Source of the DNA: Prosthecobacter sp. SYSU 5D2
Lineage (GTDB): Bacteria; Verrucomicrobiota; Verrucomicrobiia; Verrucomicrobiales; Verrucomicrobiaceae
Direction of reading: 5' to 3'
Assembly (NCBI RefSeq): GCF_039655865.1
Contig: NZ_JBBYXL010000003.1
Span: 186,001 to 250,000 of the forward strand
DNA: 64,000 nucleotides
Shown: positions 686 through 10,747 of the stretch, piece by piece
Layout: the number at the start of each line of letters is the position of its first letter
Position numbering within the stretch: the first letter of the stretch is position 1
Notes under the pieces: model-generated
What the model saw: the letters and a program-made list of their open reading frames with translations, nothing else
Database searches by the model: none
What the model was told of the DNA's origin: nothing
Translations under genes and position numbers: made by a program

Positions 686-1975
686 ATGCTCCAGAACTCC
701 ACATCTCCGGCGCTTGGCCGCCGCCAGTTTCTCCGCAGTGCCTCCGCTCTCATCGCCCTGCCAGCCTTGGAAGCTCTCGGTGGCGCGAGCGCTTCGGCCG
801 CTGCTGCCACGACAGCCGCCCACAAGCCAAAAAACTTTGTCGCCATTGGTTCATATCTGGGCTGGCATCAACCGGCATTCTTCCCCAAATCCGCTGGCAA
901 GGATTATGCGATGCCGGCGATCTTGCAGCCGATGGAGCCGCATCGAGACAGTTTCACGATTTTCTCCGGCCTGGACCACCGCGCACCCAACGGCCACAAG
1001 GCCTGGTCGAATTTCATTTGCGGCAACTCGCCAGGGTCTTATTCGCTTGACCAGCAGGTCGCAGATCAGGCGGGTGGAAAGACGCGTTTTGCCTCGCTGG
1101 AGCTGGCCACGGGCATGGGTGAAGGGGCCAAGTCCATGAGCTTTACCAAACAGGGAGTGGGCCTGCCGACGACGATCCGGCCAAGTGTGCTCTATCGCCA
1201 GCTCTTTGCCACGCAGGCTTCCCGTGCGCGGACGGAGTATCTGATCAAGAGCGGCCAGAGCTCCCTGGACAGTGTGCTCGATGACGCGAAACGGCTTCAG
1301 GCTGGGCTGCCTCAGCGGGACAAAGACAAGCTGAACGAATACTTTGATTCCTTCCGCAGTGTGGAAAAGAAAATGGCTCGCCAGCTTGCGGCGCTGGACC
1401 AGCCTGTGCCGGAGCCGGATTACAAGCTGCCAAGCTATGACCCCATCACGCCGAACCTGCAGATGGAGGCGGGCACCATCATGTATGATCTGATGACGCT
1501 GGCCCTGGAGACGGAATCCACCCATGTGATCTCGCTTTTCCTGGATGGTCTGGGGCAGGTCTTCGCCATCAATGGCGAGGTGCTGAAGGCGGGTTACCAT
1601 GCGCTGTCGCATCACGGCAATGATCCGGAAATGATCCGCGACCTCATCGCCATCGAGCGGGCGCACATGGAGTGCTTTGCGGGGTTTTTAAAGCAGCTTT
1701 CTGAGAAGAAAAACCCGGAAGGCCGGACGCTGCTGGATGATACGGTGATCCTGGTGGGCACGGGCATGGGAGATGCCAGCCGGCATAGCAATGCCAACCT
1801 GCCAATCCTGGTGGCAGGCGGCGGATTCAAGCACGGCCAGCACATCGCGATTGATGCCAAGGCCAGGGACGCGCCCTTGCTGGGCGACCTGTACATCACC
1901 CTGAAGCAGCGGCTGGGTGTGGAGTCTGACTCCTTTTCAAACGCCTACCGCAATCTCAATCATCTTTTCTCATAA
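686..1975 (+). CDS. DUF1552 domain protein, Tat-exported
   Basis: This 429-residue protein has a twin-arginine signal (GRRQFLRSASALIALPAL, about residues 11-28) and then the DUF1552 domain over the rest of its length. DUF1552 proteins are abundant in Planctomycetes and Verrucomicrobia and are usually encoded beside DUF1592 cytochrome-type proteins. Their biochemical role is not established; the fold is thought to relate to sulfatase/phosphatase-like proteins (DUF1501). A TTG three bases upstream could also start the frame, but ATG at 686 is simpler. No Shine-Dalgarno sequence is visible. The stop codon overlaps the next start (TAATG), so translation of the pair is probably coupled. Confidence 0.9.
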   Translation: MLQNSTSPALGRRQFLRSASALIALPALEALGGASASAAAATTAAHKPKNFVAIGSYLGWHQPAFFPKSAGKDYAMPAILQPMEPHRDSFTIFSGLDHRAPNGHKAWSNFICGNSPGSYSLDQQVADQAGGKTRFASLELATGMGEGAKSMSFTKQGVGLPTTIRPSVLYRQLFATQASRARTEYLIKSGQSSLDSVLDDAKRLQAGLPQRDKDKLNEYFDSFRSVEKKMARQLAALDQPVPEPDYKLPSYDPITPNLQMEAGTIMYDLMTLALETESTHVISLFLDGLGQVFAINGEVLKAGYHALSHHGNDPEMIRDLIAIERAHMECFAGFLKQLSEKKNPEGRTLLDDTVILVGTGMGDASRHSNANLPILVAGGGFKHGQHIAIDAKARDAPLLGDLYITLKQRLGVESDSFSNAYRNLNHLFS

Positions 1976-4620
1976 TGCTGTTCCACCCAATGGTGATGCG
2001 ATATTTTTTGTTAGGCTTGGCGGTCTGTGCGGCCATGCCCGCCATGGGGGCGGAGTTAAAAAAGACCGCGCCCCTGCCCGAGCCGGTGGTGAATGTTTTG
2101 GAGCAGCATTGTTATCGCTGCCACGACTCCGAGGATGGAGAAGGCGGGATCAATTTGAACCTTGCCGAAATTGACTGGAGTGCGGAAGGAGCGACCGGTG
2201 TGTGGGAGAAGACCTTCAACGTGGTTGCCCATAAGCAGATGCCGCCGGTCAACCGGCCGGCACTGACGCCGAAGCAAAAACAGACGCTGCTCGACTATCT
2301 GGACGGGCAGCTCACACAGCACACAGCCATCGGCGGCACGCTGCCCCGCAGGCTGAACCGGACGGAGTATCGAAACTCTATCCGCACGGTTTTTCAGATG
2401 CCGGATTTTGAACTGCCCTTGGGTTTCCCACGGGATACGCGGGAGCATGGCTTTGATACGGTGAGCGAGGCGCTGGTGCTTTCGCCGCCATTGCTGGAAG
2501 CCTATCAGCAGGTGGCCTGGCAGATCGCCGATGAGATCTTCCCGCCAGTGAAAAAAAAACCTCCGGTGACGACCTGGAAGGCAGGCGTGGAGGACCTGGT
2601 GCTGAGCTTTTCCGCCTCCACCATTCATGGCGATGCGCTGCGGCTGGCCTCGCGCAGCCCGGACATCATGAGGAGTTGCACCTGGCCGAGCAAAATCGAG
2701 ATCATGGCTTCGGGCACATACCGCATCAGCGTCAGCACCTCCGCCTTCCGCCCAAAGAAAGGCGCAACTCCCATGATCCTGCATGTGCATGCCCGCGATG
2801 TGGCGGCGAGCGACCGTTCCCGCACGAAAATCTTCCGCCTGCTCAAAGAGATCCAGGTCACCAGCGAGACCCCTGAGACGGTCACCTTTGATGCCGAGCT
2901 TTATGAGGGCCAGACGCCCTTGTTTCATTGGACCAATGCGGAGCTGGATCATGAGCCGGAGCCCTTTTCCACCCTGCTGGAGGCGAAGTTCCAAGACCCG
3001 CGTTTCCTCGCCGCCTGGCAGGAGATGCTTTTTCCAGGCGCCCCCAGGAAAAGGATCTCCATCACGCCTCTGCGCGGCCGCAACGGGTGGAACATTTTCC
3101 AGCGCCATTATAACAATCCTCAGCTGAATCTTGCCGATGCCACCCTGGACAACCGGTTTGCCATTGCCGCCTTGGACATGGCAAAAAGCGAAGGCTCATC
3201 ACGTGCTCTGGCGGACACCCTGGCTTATCATTATCACGAAAATGGCCCGGCTTTGCAGTTGCATGGCGTGACGGTGGAAGGCCCGTTTAAAATCGTGGAT
3301 GGCCCGCAGGATCTGCAACGCCGTAAATGGCGGGAGTGGAATTTTGCAACGCAGAAAAAGGGAGAAACGAACGAAGCCTATGCCAGCCGTGCCCTGGAAC
3401 TCCTTCTGCCGCGCTTGTTTCGTCGGCCTGTGACGGAGGATGTCCGCCGCAGCTTTGTGGACATCGCCAAGCATCACTGGGACGCCGGTCACAGCTTTGA
3501 TGAAGGCATGCACCTGATGCTGCGCAGCACCCTTGTCTCGCCACGTTTTCTTTATCGTGAGACCACCCCCGGCAAATTGGATGCACACGATCTGGCCAGC
3601 CGCGTCTCCTATTTCCTGACCCGCGACACTCCCACGAACAACATTGTGCATCAAGCGCGCAGTGGAGAACTGGCCAAACCAGCGGTGTATCGTGCTGCGA
3701 TCGAAAACCTGCTGCCCAGGTCGCCCGGCTCCCCGATGATCCGGGACTTCACGGAGCAATGGCTGGATACCCGGCTGCTGCCAGAAATCATGCCGGATGA
3801 GAAATTTGGATTTACGACGGATGAAATCGAAATCGCCAAGCGGGAAGTGGAGCATTTCTTTTTCACCATGCTGAAGGAAAACCGCCCGCTGCGGGACTTC
3901 ATTGATCCGGATTTCATGACCACGTCGAAGCGCTTCGCCTTGGAAAACTACGGTTACACCGTGGCTGGCCTGAAGCCTGTGAAACCGGCCAGCACCTACC
4001 TCACCGAACATCACAAGATCGAGCGCCTGCCCATCAAGCGTGGCGGCGTCAGGGGCGGCCTGCTGGGGCAGTCCGCCATCATGATGGCCACGGCCAATGG
4101 CGTGGATACCCAGCCCGTGCTGCGCGGTGTCTGGGTGCTGGAAAACATCCTCGGCATTCCCTTGCCCCCGGTGCCCAGCAACGTGCCCGCCCTCACCCCC
4201 GATACCCAGGGTGCCAAAACTCCCCGCGACCTCCTGGCCGCACACACTAAGGCCGCCGACTGCCGGGGCTGCCATCAGCAGATAGACCCTATCGGATTTG
4301 TCTTGGAAAACTTTGATCCCGTCGGCGGCTGGCGCGAGCAATGGCCCGGCATCAACGTGGAGATTGACCCTTCAGGCGTGCTGCCTGACGGCACCGAGAT
4401 CCTGGGTTATCCCGATCTCAAACGGTGGATTGTGGAGAACATCCACATCTTCGGTCAATGCCTCTCCGAGAAGCTCATGATCTATGCCACCGGCCGAATC
4501 CCTAGCTATGCCGAAAAGCAGGAGCTGAAGCAGATCGTGGCGAAAATCGAGCGTGAAAAAGGTGGCTTCCGCGACCTGCTCCTCACCCTGATGGAAAGCA
4601 AGACGTTCAGGACGAGGTGA
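1975..4620 (+). CDS. DUF1592/DUF1588/DUF1585 protein with c-type cytochrome motifs
   Basis: This is an 881-residue exported protein. A signal peptide covers about residues 1-26 (in-frame Met at 6 and 8 are alternative starts). It has two haem-binding CxxCH sites, CYRCH at residue 46 and CRGCH at residue 763. Between and after them is the usual series of Planctomycete-type domains: a DUF1587-like N-terminal region, DUF1595/DUF1592 in the middle, DUF1588 around the GGVRGGLLGQ stretch, and DUF1585 at the end. Such proteins are periplasmic, and electron transfer linked to polymer breakdown has been suggested but not shown. The start codon overlaps the DUF1552 stop, so the two proteins probably act as a pair. 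Confidence 0.9.
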   Translation: MLFHPMVMRYFLLGLAVCAAMPAMGAELKKTAPLPEPVVNVLEQHCYRCHDSEDGEGGINLNLAEIDWSAEGATGVWEKTFNVVAHKQMPPVNRPALTPKQKQTLLDYLDGQLTQHTAIGGTLPRRLNRTEYRNSIRTVFQMPDFELPLGFPRDTREHGFDTVSEALVLSPPLLEAYQQVAWQIADEIFPPVKKKPPVTTWKAGVEDLVLSFSASTIHGDALRLASRSPDIMRSCTWPSKIEIMASGTYRISVSTSAFRPKKGATPMILHVHARDVAASDRSRTKIFRLLKEIQVTSETPETVTFDAELYEGQTPLFHWTNAELDHEPEPFSTLLEAKFQDPRFLAAWQEMLFPGAPRKRISITPLRGRNGWNIFQRHYNNPQLNLADATLDNRFAIAALDMAKSEGSSRALADTLAYHYHENGPALQLHGVTVEGPFKIVDGPQDLQRRKWREWNFATQKKGETNEAYASRALELLLPRLFRRPVTEDVRRSFVDIAKHHWDAGHSFDEGMHLMLRSTLVSPRFLYRETTPGKLDAHDLASRVSYFLTRDTPTNNIVHQARSGELAKPAVYRAAIENLLPRSPGSPMIRDFTEQWLDTRLLPEIMPDEKFGFTTDEIEIAKREVEHFFFTMLKENRPLRDFIDPDFMTTSKRFALENYGYTVAGLKPVKPASTYLTEHHKIERLPIKRGGVRGGLLGQSAIMMATANGVDTQPVLRGVWVLENILGIPLPPVPSNVPALTPDTQGAKTPRDLLAAHTKAADCRGCHQQIDPIGFVLENFDPVGGWREQWPGINVEIDPSGVLPDGTEILGYPDLKRWIVENIHIFGQCLSEKLMIYATGRIPSYAEKQELKQIVAKIEREKGGFRDLLLTLMESKTFRTR

Positions 4621-4729: not shown

Positions 4730-7645
4730 ATGTCCAAACGTCTCTTCCTGCTCGATGGCATGGCGCTTCTCTACCGCGCCCACTTTGCTTTCATCAAAAA
4801 TCCCATCCGCACAAGCGACGGGATGAACACCTCCGCCCTCTACGGCTTCACGAACACCCTGCTGGACATCATTAAAAACTGGCAGCCCACGCACCTCGCC
4901 GTCGTCCTGGACACCTCCGCCCCCACTCCCCGGCACGAGATTTTCCCCGAGTACAAAGCCCAGCGCGAGGAGATGCCCGAAGATCTCTCCCTCGCCATCC
5001 CGCAGATCCACCGCCTCTGCGCGGCCATGAACATCCCCCTCCTCACCCGCGACGGGTACGAGGCCGATGACATCATCGGCATCCTGGCCAAGCGCTCCGA
5101 AGGCAAGGACTACGAAACCTTCATGGTCACGCCGGACAAAGACTTTGGCCAGCTCGTTTCGGAAACCGTCAAAATCTACAAACCCGGCCGCCAGGGCAGC
5201 GATGTCGAGATCCTCGGCGTCTCAGAAGTCTGCGCCCGCTGGGGCATCGAGCGCCCGGAGCAGGTCGTGGATATCCTCGCCCTCATGGGCGACGCGGTGG
5301 ACAACATCCCCGGCATCCCAGGCTTTGGCGAAAAGACTGCCACTGCCCTTATCCAGCAATACGGGAGCCTGGAAAACCTGCTCAACAATGCCGACAAGCT
5401 CAAAGGCAAGCAGAAGGAAAAGGTCGAGCAGAATGGAGACAAAGCCCGCCTCTCCTACCACCTCGCCACCATCATGCACGATGCGCCGCTGGAGGTGGAA
5501 CTGGACAACCTCGCCGTCCGTCCACATGACGACGAGCTGCTGAAAGGCCTCTTCACCGAGTTCGAGTTCAACGCCCTCGGCAAGCGGATGTTTGGCGATG
5601 AATTCAAAGCCGGGCGTGGTCGCCAGCTCGCCAAAGACGCCGCCAGCGCCGCATCTGCATCCGCTTCTTCCGACCCCGCTTCCGGCGACCTCTTTTCCAT
5701 GGAGGAAACCACCCAGCAGACCTCCCATAACCTGCGCACCATCGCTGATACCGAGCACGCCTACCACCTCGTCCGCACCCCGGAAGAGCGCACCAATTTC
5801 ATCGTCGAGCTCCAGGCCCAGCCCCGCTTCTGCTTCGACCTCGAAACCACCTCCCTGGACCCCCGCGACACGCAGATCGTCGGCATCGCCTTCTCCTGGA
5901 AGGCCAACGAAGGCTGGTTCGTCCTCTTCCCTCGCGACAAAGCCCAGGCTGCCGCCGTCCTGGAGGAATTTCGCTGCGTCTTCACCAATTCCGCCCCCGC
6001 GCCGGAGTCCATTTCCGCCCCCTGGGATAGCGGCGACGATACCGCCCTTCCAGTGTCACCTCTGCCCGCAGGCATTGAGAAAATCGGACATAACCTCAAG
6101 TTTGACCTCAGTGTCCTCCTCGCCCACGGACTTGAAGTCACCGGCCCGTTCTTCGATACCATGCTCGCTCATTCCTTGATCGAGCCCGACCAGCGTCATG
6201 GCATGGATTACCTCGCGGAGTCCATGCTCAGTTATACCCCCGTGCCCATCACTGCCCTCATCGGCACGGAAAAAAACGACCTCTTCAGCCAGTCCACCAT
6301 GGCCGACGTCGCCGAGGCCGATCCGCAAAAGATCACCGACTACGCCGCCGAGGACGCCGACATCACCTGGCAGCTTGCCGAAAAACTCCGCCCCCTGCTT
6401 CCCGTCCACGGTGCCGAGCGCGTGTTTTATGAGATCGAGTGCCCCCTCCTTCCCGTCCTGACCAAAATGGAAAACGAAGGCGTCGCCATTGATGTGCAGG
6501 CGCTACGCGAATTCGGCCTGGAGCTTGAAAAACGCGCCAATGAAATGCACCGCCGCATTCAGGAAGTCGCCGGCGGCCCCTTCAATCTCAACAGCCCCAA
6601 GCAGCTCGGCGAAGTCCTCTTTGACCGCCTCAAGCTGTCCGACAAACCCAAGAAAACTTCCACCGGCCAGTACCAGACCAATGAGCAGGTCCTGCAATCT
6701 CTCGCCGGTCTGCATCCCATCATCGCCGACATCCTCGAATATCGCGAGGTGACCAAGCTGAAGAACACCTATGTGGACACGCTACCTGGCACAGTTTCCA
6801 AAGTCACCGGCCGCGTCCACACCACCTTTCATCAGCTCCTGGCCGCCACCGGCCGCATGGCCTCCAGCAACCCGAACCTGCAGAACATCCCCATCCGCTC
6901 GGATTCTGGGAAGGAGATCCGCAAAGCATTCGTGCCTGGGCAGCCCGGTCATGTTCTCCTCAGTGCCGACTACAGCCAGGTGGAGCTGCGCGTGATGGCC
7001 GCCATCAGTGAAGACCCCGCCATGATTGAGGCCTTCCAAAACGGTCACGACATTCACCAGGCGACCGCCGCGCGCGTCTATGGAGTGCCGCTGGAGGGAG
7101 TGCTTCCGGAAATGCGCCGCACCGCCAAGATGGTCAATTTTGGCATTATCTACGGCATCAGTGCCTTTGGCCTGTCGCAGCGTCTCGGCATCCCGCGTAG
7201 CGAGGCCGCCACCATCATTGAGAACTACTTCAAACAGTTCCCCGGCATCCACAAATACATGGACCAGATCGTCCAGGATGCCAAACGCTACGGCTATGTC
7301 GAGACCATCACCGGCCGCCGCCGCGTCATCCGCGACATCACCAGCGGCAATGCCAGCATCCGTGGCGGTGCCGAGCGCATGGCCATGAACACCCCCATCC
7401 AGGGCACCGCCGCCGACATGATCAAGCTCGCCATGATCCACGTGGACAAAGCCCTCACCCGCAGCGGCCTCAAAACCAAAATGCTCCTCCAGGTGCACGA
7501 TGAACTCCTCTTCGAAGTCCCCGAAGACGAAGTCCCCCAGGCCAAAGAAATCATCCTCACTGAAATGCGCAACGCCCTCTCCCTCGGCGACGTCCCTGTG
7601 GAAGTGGATGCAGGCACCGGCAGTAACTGGCTCCAAGCTCATTGA
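4730..7645 (+). CDS. polA: DNA polymerase I
   Basis: At 971 residues this is a full-length three-domain family A polymerase. The 5'-3' exonuclease domain occupies about residues 1-290. A 3'-5' proofreading domain follows (about 340-580) with its acidic residues intact: DLETTSLDP, then HNLKFD, then YAAEDAD. The polymerase domain has motif A with the catalytic Asp at 747 (SADYSQVELR), motif B (RRTAKMVNFGIIYG) and motif C (HDE at 923-925). It fills gaps and replaces RNA primers in repair and lagging-strand synthesis. The gene stands alone after a 109-base gap. No Shine-Dalgarno sequence precedes the ATG. Confidence 0.97.
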   Translation: MSKRLFLLDGMALLYRAHFAFIKNPIRTSDGMNTSALYGFTNTLLDIIKNWQPTHLAVVLDTSAPTPRHEIFPEYKAQREEMPEDLSLAIPQIHRLCAAMNIPLLTRDGYEADDIIGILAKRSEGKDYETFMVTPDKDFGQLVSETVKIYKPGRQGSDVEILGVSEVCARWGIERPEQVVDILALMGDAVDNIPGIPGFGEKTATALIQQYGSLENLLNNADKLKGKQKEKVEQNGDKARLSYHLATIMHDAPLEVELDNLAVRPHDDELLKGLFTEFEFNALGKRMFGDEFKAGRGRQLAKDAASAASASASSDPASGDLFSMEETTQQTSHNLRTIADTEHAYHLVRTPEERTNFIVELQAQPRFCFDLETTSLDPRDTQIVGIAFSWKANEGWFVLFPRDKAQAAAVLEEFRCVFTNSAPAPESISAPWDSGDDTALPVSPLPAGIEKIGHNLKFDLSVLLAHGLEVTGPFFDTMLAHSLIEPDQRHGMDYLAESMLSYTPVPITALIGTEKNDLFSQSTMADVAEADPQKITDYAAEDADITWQLAEKLRPLLPVHGAERVFYEIECPLLPVLTKMENEGVAIDVQALREFGLELEKRANEMHRRIQEVAGGPFNLNSPKQLGEVLFDRLKLSDKPKKTSTGQYQTNEQVLQSLAGLHPIIADILEYREVTKLKNTYVDTLPGTVSKVTGRVHTTFHQLLAATGRMASSNPNLQNIPIRSDSGKEIRKAFVPGQPGHVLLSADYSQVELRVMAAISEDPAMIEAFQNGHDIHQATAARVYGVPLEGVLPEMRRTAKMVNFGIIYGISAFGLSQRLGIPRSEAATIIENYFKQFPGIHKYMDQIVQDAKRYGYVETITGRRRVIRDITSGNASIRGGAERMAMNTPIQGTAADMIKLAMIHVDKALTRSGLKTKMLLQVHDELLFEVPEDEVPQAKEIILTEMRNALSLGDVPVEVDAGTGSNWLQAH

Positions 7646-7697: not shown

Positions 7698-8762
7698 ATG
7701 CCTTTCCGCCTCGTCATCCTCAGCTTCGTTCTGGCCGTCTCCACCGCCAGTGCCTGCACCATCCCGGTCTTCCGCTTCGCTCTGGACCGCTGGGAAGCGG
7801 ACCCGTTCCATCTCGTCCTCCCTCCGTCCACATCTCAGGACCCCGCCGTCAGCGACCTGCTGCGTCCCCTCCGTGCCAACGGCAAGGCCAACCTCACCAT
7901 CACCTCCGCCCCCGCAGCCACCATCTCGGAACTCAAATACTCTCGCGAAAGCGACCACCTCGTCTGGTCCGGCGACCTGAATGCCCAGACGCTCCCTGCC
8001 CTGCTCGATTCCCCTGCCCGCCAGCAGATCCTCCAGCACATCCTCGCCGGCGACTCCGTCGTCTGGGTCATCGCCGAAGGCGGCACCGATGCCGATGCAG
8101 CAGAAGCCGACCGCATCGAAAAGCGCCTCCGGTTTCTCGAACAGGTCGCTGCCCTGCCCGTGCAGAACCCCAATGATCCCGACAGCCAGCTCGGCCCCGG
8201 CCCGCCCTTGCTGCTGAAGTTCACCACCCTGCGCCTCAACCGCAATGACCCTGCCGAGCTGCCCCTCATTCAAATGCTCGCCGGGCCTAACCAAAAGGTG
8301 GACCCCAAGACCACCAGCTTTGCCGCCGCCGTCTTCGGCCGTGGCCGCGTCCTCGGAGCCTGGCCCCTGACGGATCTTGACGATGCCTCCTTGGAGGATG
8401 CCTGCATGTTCCTCGTCGGTCGCTGCTCCTGCCGCGTTAAAAATGAGAACCCCGGCTGGGACCTCCTCATGAATGTGGACTGGGAAAAATCCCTCACCGA
8501 GGTCAAAGCCACCCTCGCCAGCGCCCCCACCGTTGACATTGCCGAACCAGAAGTGCAACCACCAGCTCCCTCCATGGTGCCAATTACCGTCACCACACAG
8601 CCGCCTCCTGGTGCTCCATCCACCAGCGCCGGTGATCCAAACATTTGGATAGGTTCCTCACAGGATGACACGTATTTTATTGGTCTAAACAGGCCATTGC
8701 TCACCGGCATCGGCGCCTTTGTCCTGACCCTCCTCGCCTTCCTACTCCTCCGGAAAAAATAA
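7698..8762 (+). CDS. Exported, C-terminally anchored protein of unknown function
   Basis: The 354-residue product has an N-terminal signal segment (about residues 1-19) followed at once by CTIPVFRFALDRW. A Cys-rich stretch GRCSCRVKNENPGWDLL lies around residues 243-259, then a Pro-rich linker, then a single membrane helix at the very C-terminus ending in LLRKK. I recognise the CTIPVFR/CSC pattern as recurring in Planctomycetes and Verrucomicrobia proteins but know no assigned function. The frame stays open upstream to 7500 inside polA, but the signal peptide fixes the start at 7698. It is 12 bases from the next gene and probably heads a three-gene operon. Confidence 0.8.
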   Translation: MPFRLVILSFVLAVSTASACTIPVFRFALDRWEADPFHLVLPPSTSQDPAVSDLLRPLRANGKANLTITSAPAATISELKYSRESDHLVWSGDLNAQTLPALLDSPARQQILQHILAGDSVVWVIAEGGTDADAAEADRIEKRLRFLEQVAALPVQNPNDPDSQLGPGPPLLLKFTTLRLNRNDPAELPLIQMLAGPNQKVDPKTTSFAAAVFGRGRVLGAWPLTDLDDASLEDACMFLVGRCSCRVKNENPGWDLLMNVDWEKSLTEVKATLASAPTVDIAEPEVQPPAPSMVPITVTTQPPPGAPSTSAGDPNIWIGSSQDDTYFIGLNRPLLTGIGAFVLTLLAFLLLRKK

Positions 8763-8774
8763 CCCCTCCTCGCC

Positions 8775-10304
8775 ATGTTCCGAAAACTTCTCGCCATTGT
8801 CCTGCTCATCGCCGCCGGAGGACTGGCCTTTTACAGCCTGCGCACGGAATCATCTGCCTCAGGGAAGTCCCTCACCGTCTATTGCGCCGCCGGGCTGAAG
8901 AAACCGGTGGAAGCCATCGCCACGCAGTATGAAAAAGACACCGGCACGTCAATCGCCCTCCAGTTCGGAGGCACCGGCACCCTTCTCAGCCAGCTCCGTG
9001 TGGCCAACCGGGGAGACCTGTTCATCGCTGCGGATGACGCGGCCCTGGCCGATGCCCACAAGCTGGAAGTCACCCGGGAAGTCCTGCCCCTGGCCGTCCA
9101 GCATCCCGTCATCGCGGTTGCCAAAGGCAATCCCAAAAACATTCGCACCCTGGCCGATTTGGAAAAGCCGGACATCCGACTGGCCCTGACCAACCCGGAG
9201 GCCGCCAGCAACGGCAAGATTGCGCAAAAAATCCTCGGTGCCCGCTGGGAAGTCCTGGCCAAAAAAGCCGCCGTCATGAAACCCACTGTGACGGAAATCG
9301 CTGCCGATACCAAGCTTGGGGCCGTGGATGCCGCCCTTGTCTGGGACAGCACCGTCCCCCAGTTTAAAGGGCTTGAAGCAGTCAAAATCCCCGAACTCTC
9401 CACCCATGAAGAAAAGGCCAGTGCTGCCGTGCTGAGCAGCGCTGTTTCCTCCGTTGAAGCCCTGAAATTCGCCCGCTACCTCTCCGCCCCGGAAAAAGGT
9501 GGCACCCTCTTTAAAGAGCATGGCTTCCAGGCCGCAGGCGGTGATGCCTGGGTGGTGAAACCCGAACTCGTCCTCTACAGCGGCGGCGTCAACCGGCCCG
9601 CCATTGAAAAGCTGGTCCAGGACTTCGCCACCCGTGAAGGCATCAGCATCACCACCGTTTTCAACGGCTGCGGTATCCTCTGCGCCGCCATGAAGACCAT
9701 GGAAGACAGCAGCAGCTCCAATTACCCGGATGTCTATTATGCCTGCGATGTCTGCTTCGTCCCGCCCGTGGCTGAAAACTTCCCGGAGGCCGTCCTGCTG
9801 ACCGAGGCCGAAATCATCATCGCCGTGCCAAAGGGCAATCCCAAGAATATCAAGACCCTGGCCGACCTCGCCCGCCCCGGCCTGCGTGTCGGCATCTGCA
9901 ATGCTGAGCAGTCCACCCTCGGCTTCATGACCCAGGGCATATTGAAGTCCATGAACCTGTTTGAGAGCGTCAGCAAAAACGCCTCCAGCCAGGTCCCCAC
10001 TGGCGACTTCCTGGTCAATCAACTGCGCACCGGCTCCCTCGATGCCGCCGTCGTTTACCACATCAACATCCAGAACGAGATCGAGCACTTCGAATCCATC
10101 CCCCTGCCTGCCGACAAGGCCAAAGCCATCCAGCCCTTTGCCGTGCGGGTGAATTCCCCACGTCGTCAGCTTGGTTACCGCCTGCTGGCCTGGCTGAGGG
10201 CTAACCAAAAGAGCTTCACCGATGCCGGATTTGTCTGGCGTGGTGATGCTCCCGCCGTGAAAAGCAGCGAACTCGAGATTCCCGAATGGCTTCAACAGCG
10301 CTAA
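8775..10304 (+). CDS. Tandem ModA-like periplasmic binding protein
   Basis: This 509-residue protein has an N-terminal membrane anchor or signal (residues 3-20) and two copies of a molybdate-binding-protein-like (ModA/PBP type II) domain, about residues 31-255 and 264-495. The duplication shows directly: AVAKGNPKNIRTLADLEKP at 114-132 matches AVPKGNPKNIKTLADLARP at 350-368. Domain 1 keeps the usual ligand loops (GGTGTL, GDLFIAAD). In domain 2 the matching loops carry cysteines: CGILC (299-303) and CDVC (324-327). No ABC permease or ATPase gene is adjacent. The ligand is unknown; an oxyanion in domain 1 and a thiophilic metal or metalloid in domain 2 is only inference. Confidence 0.85.
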   Translation: MFRKLLAIVLLIAAGGLAFYSLRTESSASGKSLTVYCAAGLKKPVEAIATQYEKDTGTSIALQFGGTGTLLSQLRVANRGDLFIAADDAALADAHKLEVTREVLPLAVQHPVIAVAKGNPKNIRTLADLEKPDIRLALTNPEAASNGKIAQKILGARWEVLAKKAAVMKPTVTEIAADTKLGAVDAALVWDSTVPQFKGLEAVKIPELSTHEEKASAAVLSSAVSSVEALKFARYLSAPEKGGTLFKEHGFQAAGGDAWVVKPELVLYSGGVNRPAIEKLVQDFATREGISITTVFNGCGILCAAMKTMEDSSSSNYPDVYYACDVCFVPPVAENFPEAVLLTEAEIIIAVPKGNPKNIKTLADLARPGLRVGICNAEQSTLGFMTQGILKSMNLFESVSKNASSQVPTGDFLVNQLRTGSLDAAVVYHINIQNEIEHFESIPLPADKAKAIQPFAVRVNSPRRQLGYRLLAWLRANQKSFTDAGFVWRGDAPAVKSSELEIPEWLQQR

Positions 10305-10315
10305 GCTGTCAGACA

Positions 10316-10747
10316 ATGCGTATCCTTCTCCCGCTGCTCGGTCTCGGCTTCTGTCTCATCGGCTGCAAACCTGCGCCTGCCCTCCGGGTGGACCTGGAGC
10401 CACCCGCCGTCATCCTGCCCGCCTCAGTTCAGGAGTTCTCCCCCGCCGAAGCCGCTGCCTGGATGACCGAAAACCCTGGTGCCCTCATCCTGGACGCACG
10501 CATGGCGGAAGAAGTCACCCGCGAGGGAAAACTCCCCGGCTCCCAGCATCACGATTATCTCAAGCCCACCACCCAGGAATACCTGGCCACGCTGGACCGC
10601 CAAAAACCCTGCCTCATCTACTGCGCCCTCGGCGGCCGCTCCCGCCGCCTGGCCGTGCAGATGCATGAGCTAGGTTTCACCCGTCTTGCGGTTCTCAAAG
10701 ACGGACTGAATGCCTGGCAGACAGAAGGCCGCGCTGTCGTCAAGTAA
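10316..10747 (+). CDS. Rhodanese-domain lipoprotein
   Basis: The 143-residue protein starts with a short signal ending in the lipobox LIGC (Cys17), so it should be lipid-anchored in the envelope. A single rhodanese domain follows (about residues 38-143) with the active-site cysteine Cys103 in the loop CALGGRS, the position that carries a persulfide in sulfurtransferases. The ATG at 10316 is 11 bases after the previous stop; an upstream in-frame ATG at 10286 lies inside that gene and would spoil the signal peptide. Position suggests it works with the two preceding Cys-containing envelope proteins, perhaps in sulfur or redox transfer. Confidence 0.88.
   Translation: MRILLPLLGLGFCLIGCKPAPALRVDLEPPAVILPASVQEFSPAEAAAWMTENPGALILDARMAEEVTREGKLPGSQHHDYLKPTTQEYLATLDRQKPCLIYCALGGRSRRLAVQMHELGFTRLAVLKDGLNAWQTEGRAVVK

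Follow-up and report, generated by a model that had tools for sequence, protein, structure and literature searches.

What does a bacterium take up with a molybdate-type binding protein that carries cysteines in its pocket loops, and that is encoded with neither a permease nor an ATPase beside it? This question is raised by a 64,000-nucleotide stretch of DNA from Prosthecobacter sp. SYSU 5D2 (hereafter the window; positions 186,001 to 250,000 of NZ_JBBYXL010000003.1, a part of contig C3 in a 5.87 Mb genome), where three plus-strand genes follow polA at 7698-8762, 8775-10304 and 10316-10747, spaced by 12 and 11 bases. Gene 1 (G1, 354 aa) encodes an exported protein with a thioredoxin-fold domain at residues ~104-241 and a C-terminal membrane anchor, gene 2 (509 aa) a membrane-anchored tandem ModA-like binding protein composed of two domains, D1 and D2, and gene 3 (143 aa) a rhodanese lipoprotein. 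A previous sequence-only reading had described this trio as a closely spaced set of exported or anchored products, each with conspicuous cysteines (CTIPVFR and CSC in G1; C299, C303, C324 and C327 in D2; the loop cysteine of the rhodanese), and its coordinates, domains and residues are all borne out. We conclude, with a probability of about 0.85, that the trio makes up the cargo-binding portion of a ModABC-type importer with dispersed genes, provided with a module of pocket cysteines, G1 and an E1-like enzyme.

Cysteines in the pocket loops of a tandem ModA-like protein

Gene 2 comprises two SBP_bac_11 domains (Pfam, 250.5 bits in two stretches). Only D1 (residues 33-252; 8871-9530, plus strand) passes the NCBIfam TIGR01256 cut-off for modA (81.9 bits versus 62.5, residues 38-248), and gene 2 does not reach the curated cut-offs of Sbp (33.5 versus 155.5 bits) or CysP (30 versus 308). 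D2 (residues 261-492; 9555-10250, plus strand) is a diverged copy of D1 with cysteine-rich pocket loops; both share 29% identity (E 4e-22 in a single pairwise comparison). The AlphaFold2 model (mean pLDDT 91.3) predicts an N-terminal membrane anchor helix (residues 2-22; 8778-8840, plus strand) followed by two lobes, and its overlay with VIA-align, which concerns mainly D1, gives 7tav (Z 27.9, 217 aligned residues, 2.1 Å) and the tungstate-bound ModA 1wod (Z 27.4). ModA chains are also retrieved by sequence with a profile of the gene 2 family (1amf, E 9.3e-13, D1 only), and the related folds found by structure comparison include ferric- and metal-citrate-binding proteins. Gene 2 is the sole ModA-like gene found in this genome. 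A scan of viral contigs with gene 2 returned 24 stretches that fit a pattern, none of which codes for a relative.

A closer view of the pocket is given by the alignment with ModA, whose Ser12 and Ser39 we take to be ligands of the oxyanion. These positions are occupied by G40 and T67 in D1 and, through the alignment of both lobes, by V272 and C299 in D2, so that the serine ligands are kept in neither lobe. The neighbouring pocket loop, equivalent to the 'SAD' loop of ModA, holds C324, which aligns with A86 of D1. To follow these residues through evolution, two sets of proteins were used: a wide one, to which 11 genomes of a phylum sample (194 Verrucomicrobiota genomes) contribute 12 tandem proteins, and a close one derived from a scan for G1 loci with the pattern VF[RQ][YF]A[LI][EDQ][RHN]W, which found at least 575 loci and retained the 80 best. 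Tandem genes are present in 48 of those 80, and 39 of these plus the window form the 40 rows of the close alignment. C299 (9669-9671, plus strand) and C324 (9744-9746, plus strand) occur in all 12 proteins of the wide set and, as judged from the alignments, define the whole tandem family, whereas C303 (9681-9683, plus strand) and C327 (9753-9755, plus strand) are lineage-specific, present in 4/12 and 2/12. These four residues, together with C37 of D1 (8883-8885; 9/12 in the wide set) and Met306 in the pocket loops, are invariant in the 40 close rows, window included. The expectation of the sequence-only reading that the D2 cysteines are kept was therefore right for C299 and C324 and, outside the close relatives, wrong for the other two; its view that this is no plain molybdate importer is supported.

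Met329 is also common in the wide tandem set. It was considered as a metal ligand gained on the loss of C303 and C327, an idea that was discarded as E. coli ModA has a methionine at this position of the alignment too. As a separate observation, some genomes with G1 (loci L079, L092 and L093) contain no tandem protein, but a pair of binding proteins that are either single-lobe or fused in another way; those aligned show CHDP or AHDP in place of the ACD of the tandem family, and no equivalent of C299.

Partner genes in the Verrucomicrobiota

In the phylum sample, G1 was found in 16 genomes, and gene 2 was matched in 43, over both lobes in 11 only. All these 11 tandem genomes have G1, compared with 5 of the 183 others (Fisher 1.6e-14, without correction for relatedness). 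G1 and the tandem gene lie on different contigs in several of these genomes, and a chance neighbourhood was consequently rejected as the origin of the pair, which co-occurs even when far apart. The proposal that the three genes form a unit is supported. Within it, the rhodanese is a lineage-specific neighbour: of the 38 loci that have a tandem gene with enough room downstream, it follows in 6 (never with ModB or ModC), and it also follows in the two same-genus genomes compared below.

Many related loci share a recurrent order, which runs from a pyrroloquinoline-quinone (PQQ)-propeller protein through G1, the tandem gene, ModB and ModC to an E1-like ThiF. ModB and/or ModC stand directly downstream of the tandem gene in 25 of the 38 loci, with Mo_ABC_porter and modB as the closest models for the relatives' ModB, and a PQQ-type gene neighbours G1 in 48 of 76 loci. 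MoaD/ThiS-like carriers are found beside E1 in some relatives (PF02597 in 3/3 scanned), and in L084, L087 and L168 an E1 without rhodanese and a ThiS/MoaD-like protein accompany the ATP-binding cassette (ABC) importer; in L077, an E1-rhodanese fusion adjoins G1. In more distant genomes, the neighbours of G1 are a permease resembling FtsX and an ATPase resembling LolD. The sequence-only reading had laid down in advance that an adjacent modB/modC in relatives would make this an ordinary importer. An importer it is, against that reading, yet not an ordinary one, because of the conserved cysteines, G1, and the linked genes for E1-like and ubiquitin-like sulfur-carrier proteins.

Two loci show further particularities. 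In L068:5307-10012 (genome G139), ModB and the tandem gene are separated by genes for a small ferredoxin-like protein of the 4Fe-4S type and for a membrane protein of 216 aa that has no Pfam match, and there is an extra single-lobe substrate-binding protein with cysteines in similar loops (ARAC, CNRHC). In L066:7584-12863 (G000:C3, ~40.6-45.9 kb), a G1 paralogue is divergent from an adjoining 1362-aa PQQ-propeller protein, which also has weak methyltransferase and malectin matches.

A probably scattered importer and a same-genus comparison

The operons of relatives provided the queries to look for the missing partners in Prosthecobacter sp. SYSU 5D2. With the proteins of locus L112, the genome yields a ModB with 65-71% identity (next best 26%) on contig C3, ~260 kb away, a ModC with 61% identity (next best 36%) on contig C14, and a dedicated E1 with 72% identity (next best 40%, an E1-rhodanese fusion like MoeB), each of these genes lying at a separate place. 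The absence of an ABC permease and ATPase noticed by the sequence-only reading is hence true for the neighbourhood and untrue for the genome, and a permease-free binding system is rejected. Judged from these identities, the importer is complete but scattered in this genome.

Two genomes of the same genus are instructive in this regard. In G187, ModB and E1 are again on contigs other than that of the trio. G190 (99% complete) has a locus reduced to polA, a binding protein with D1 only, and the rhodanese; it lacks G1, D2 and the dedicated E1 (best match 37%), and keeps ModB (64%) and MoaE. Since D2, G1 and E1 are jointly missing from a genome that retains D1, ModB and the rhodanese, the comparison points to these three as one module laid over an importer made of D1 and ModBC. 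Moreover, the rhodanese need not belong to this module, because in G190 it stays with D1. The association was also followed in 22 hand-chosen genomes, 11 tandem and 11 others, with a threshold of at least 50% identity: ModB is present in 11/11 tandem genomes versus 1/11 of the others (G190), and E1 in 9/11 versus 1/11 (G114; Fisher 0.0019). A dedicated E1 homologue of a draft genome (G015:C294:8953-9678) contains one in-frame TAA.

The anchored thioredoxin-fold protein and the rhodanese

Among the loci retained, the closest relatives of G1 come from Prosthecobacter and other Verrucomicrobiaceae, with a top identity of 74%. No Pfam-A or NCBIfam model matched G1, and a search of the PDB sequences with its profile gave no matches up to an E value of 1. 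The AlphaFold2 model (mean pLDDT 87.5) nevertheless contains a thioredoxin fold at residues ~104-241 (Z 9.1, 98 aligned residues, 2.3 Å, by VIA-align covering residues 103-241). As the top rows of Foldseek are double-thioredoxin proteins (E 1.6e-3), the first half of G1 may be a second, reduced thioredoxin-like domain. The fold of residues ~104-241 is common to thioredoxins and to the b-b' domains of PDI/ERp57. Unlike those proteins, G1 is predicted to be membrane-anchored through a C-terminal transmembrane helix (residues 332-352; 8691-8753, plus strand), which is an AlphaFold2 helix, hydrophobic and ending in RKK. It also lacks the CXXC active site, with no cysteine at the expected place within residues 104-236, and neither its C20 nor its CSC falls within the clear thioredoxin domain.

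Both cysteine sites of G1 are widely kept. The C243-S-C245 motif (8424-8432, plus strand) is found in 69/69 close rows and in 18/19 phylum genes, and C20 (codon 7755-7757, plus strand, within CTIPVFR) in 69/69 and 17/19. The close alignment joins 68 of 76 usable loci with the window, and its rows had to match CxxPV[FY][RQ][YF]; this filter excluded no row, although the invariance of the residues in the scan pattern and the filter, C20 included, is partly by construction. The phylum set has 19 genes, 17 of them aligned and two inspected separately, one with C20 and CSC and the other with CSC and without CxxPVFR. According to simple patterns of our own, which are not a trained predictor, a signal peptidase I site fits at C20 in 60/69 rows and a lipobox in just 5/69. 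G1 was accordingly discarded as a lipoprotein, and C20 may be the first residue of the mature protein, given that a signal-peptidase-I-like site precedes it in those 60 rows.

Gene 3 matches the rhodanese family PF00581 (49.8 bits versus a cut-off of 22.2) and carries on the plus strand a lipobox, LIGC, with C17 (10364-10366) and a predicted active-site C103 (10622-10624) in the active loop CALGGRS (CxxGxR). The CA[LI]G.R loop is conserved in the 6/6 rhodanese loci and in both same-genus genomes. Rhodaneses are a common family, with 17 matches in this genome, and the one considered here is a lineage-specific neighbour of the tandem gene.

As for the genes around the trio, polA (4730-7645, plus strand) is a conserved upstream neighbour outside the system; the two same-genus genomes, too, have it ahead of their binding-protein genes. 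Just upstream of polA, at 1975-4620 of the window, there is a planctomycete-type cytochrome-related protein with DUF1587/1592/1595/1588/1585 domains (PSD/PSCyt).

Proposed mechanism and nature of the cargo

We infer a working scheme for these proteins, in which the identity of the cargo, the chemistry of the cysteines, the direction of sulfur flow and the physical contacts among the proteins are all conjectural. D1 and D2 would be a pair of binding lobes tethered to the membrane, both working for a single ModB/ModC translocator whose genes lie elsewhere in the genome. D2 would hold the cargo by the thiols of C299 and C324, aided in this lineage by those of C303 and C327, at the place of ModA Ser39. 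In the same membrane, G1 with its free Cys20 and CSC would keep the thiols of D2 reduced or swap cargo with them, and the lipoprotein rhodanese of this lineage might supply or withdraw sulfane sulfur. In the cytoplasm, the dedicated E1-like enzyme, which in some relatives is accompanied by a MoaD/ThiS-like carrier, would load sulfur as thiocarboxylate. The cargo would most likely be a sulfur species, for instance thiosulfate or a persulfide. Our best guess for the cargo is a sulfur species captured by cysteine, a thiophilic metal being less likely. The full scheme, that is, the periplasmic half of a scattered ModABC-type importer with thiol capture and a sulfur cargo, is our preferred explanation, held tentatively and at somewhat less than even odds; sulfur as the cargo, taken by itself, ranks first among the candidates on odds no better than these, followed by molybdate or tungstate and then by a thiophilic metal.

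The partners of the system, namely E1, the ubiquitin-like carrier and the rhodanese, point to sulfur transfer, and the E1-rhodanese fusion beside G1 in L077 fits with this. Several observations nonetheless weigh against a sulfur importer with an added cysteine module. The nearest kin of D1 are still molybdate binders, MoaE occurs in 7/11 tandem genomes, and in G190 the rhodanese stays with D1. An inspection by eye of the 26 largest groups of neighbours, with no family search, revealed no genes of sulfate reduction or cysteine synthesis. CXXC is absent from the thioredoxin domain of G1. Moreover, the distribution has its exceptions: 32 of the best 80 G1 loci have no tandem gene in the stretch examined (some of these stretches being short), 7/38 loci have neither ModB/C nor rhodanese after the tandem gene, the tandem genomes G004 and G139 lack E1 at 50% identity, and G114 has E1 without a tandem protein.

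The most serious competitor is a molybdate or tungstate importer, where D1 binds the oxyanion, D2 acts as a redox-gated or thio-oxyanion lobe, and the MoaD/MoeB-like neighbours belong to molybdenum cofactor synthesis. It draws on D1 being above the modA cut-off and the only ModA-like match in the genome, on the Mo_ABC_porter and modB models closest to ModB, on the MoaE of seven tandem genomes, and on G190, which keeps D1, ModB and MoaE without D2. Neither lobe, however, conserves the equivalents of Ser12 and Ser39. MoaE is present in 49/194 genomes and is missing from four of the 11 tandem ones (G029, G139, G145 and G165, drafts that are 93-96% complete), and aldehyde:ferredoxin oxidoreductase (AOR) occurs in 4/194 genomes and in 0/11 tandem genomes, which also led us to reject a tungsten/AOR cluster, an idea prompted by the MoaD/MoeB-like neighbours. 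Mo-nitrogenase needs molybdenum but not MoaE, and the MoaE count does not cover that need. Because 4/11 tandem genomes lack MoaE and none has AOR, the system seems independent of the Mo/W cofactor in some, at least, of the genomes that carry it. Altogether, we regard molybdate or tungstate as a rather improbable cargo, at around one chance in four by our own estimate.

Slightly less probable still is a metal importer, in which C299, C324 and the cysteines and methionines close to them would bind a thiophilic ion or complex, for instance Cu(I), and G1 would be a thiol chaperone. The four cysteines and the invariant Met306 in the pocket loops of all close rows would suit such a cargo, as would the predicted N-terminal cysteine of mature G1 with its CXC, the cysteines and histidines in equivalent loops of some related single-lobe proteins (three aligned, by eye), and the ferric- and metal-citrate-binding proteins among the related folds; but C303 and C327 are not constant beyond the close relatives, Met329 is no special ligand in view of the methionine of E. 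coli ModA, and partners of the E1/MoaD type suggest sulfur transfer rather than metal transport. Finally, the cysteines could be structural or regulatory disulfides in an importer of an ordinary oxyanion (sulfate, molybdate), with G1 as a disulfide-handling helper. That the loops of C299 and C324 are neighbours, that both residues always appear together (12/12), and that G1 has a thioredoxin fold, speak in favour of this idea, which we nevertheless deem the least likely of the three, as C299 stands in the very place of the ligand serine, the domain of G1 with the thioredoxin fold is devoid of CXXC, and the shared distribution of D2, G1 and E1 would be left unexplained.

Relation to known systems and significance

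Conserved cysteines at the oxyanion site are not known to us from any other binding protein of the ModA type, and our literature searches found no report of the trio or of a cysteine ModA among the papers listed. One of the nearest known systems is ModA/ModBC itself (TIGR01256; E. coli ModA 1amf/1wod), which resembles the present one in the fold of both lobes, in the ModB/ModC partners and in the cut-off passed by D1. Here, in contrast, two lobes are fused on an anchor, Ser12 and Ser39 are replaced by Gly and Thr in D1 and by Val and Cys in D2, G1 looks like an obligate partner, E1 and a ubiquitin-like carrier are linked in relatives, and the genes are scattered. Two type-II lobes in series that serve one translocator are described for the GlnPQ-type importers (6h30; PMC8025302), which Foldseek places at rank 3 (E 1.7e-17, but with an rmsd of 20 Å). 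In GlnPQ, the lobes are joined to the permease and their ligands are amino acids, whereas gene 2 is a separate, ModA-like protein with pocket cysteines.

Also comparable are the operons of row 4e in PMC1779556, which are reported to combine sulfate/sulfite ABC transporters, ThiS/MoaD and an E1 that lacks a rhodanese domain, and to be associated with the assimilation of sulfur. As in the relatives studied here, an oxyanion-type ABC importer is coupled there with E1 and a ubiquitin-like sulfur carrier; the ModA-like tandem protein, G1 and the PQQ-propeller set the present system apart, and no sulfate-reduction genes were recognised by eye in the largest groups of its recurrent neighbours. Conserved cysteines also take part in the import of sulfur or thiosulfate by TsuA/YeeE and SoxT (PMC11582611), which share with our system the cysteines along the import path and the rhodanese or TusA-like partners. 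Unlike the present system, TsuA/YeeE and SoxT are not ABC importers, and they appear not to be homologous to it.

The system is widespread in Verrucomicrobiota, and yet G1 fits no Pfam or NCBIfam family. A congener without G1, D2 and E1, such as G190, offers a ready natural comparison for this module. A bolder reading, which we consider possible though unlikely, is that of a new class of ABC importer whose cargo, either sulfur or a thio-metallate, is caught by cysteines in a ModA-like anion cleft; G1 would service the thiols outside, and the E1/ubiquitin-like pair would take the sulfur inside, so that transport would be coupled to thiocarboxylate formation. If the cysteines do touch the cargo, these bacteria would possess an ABC importer whose substrate reacts with thiols and, in that case, the linkage with E1 and a ubiquitin-like carrier would tie its uptake to the chemistry of sulfur carriers.

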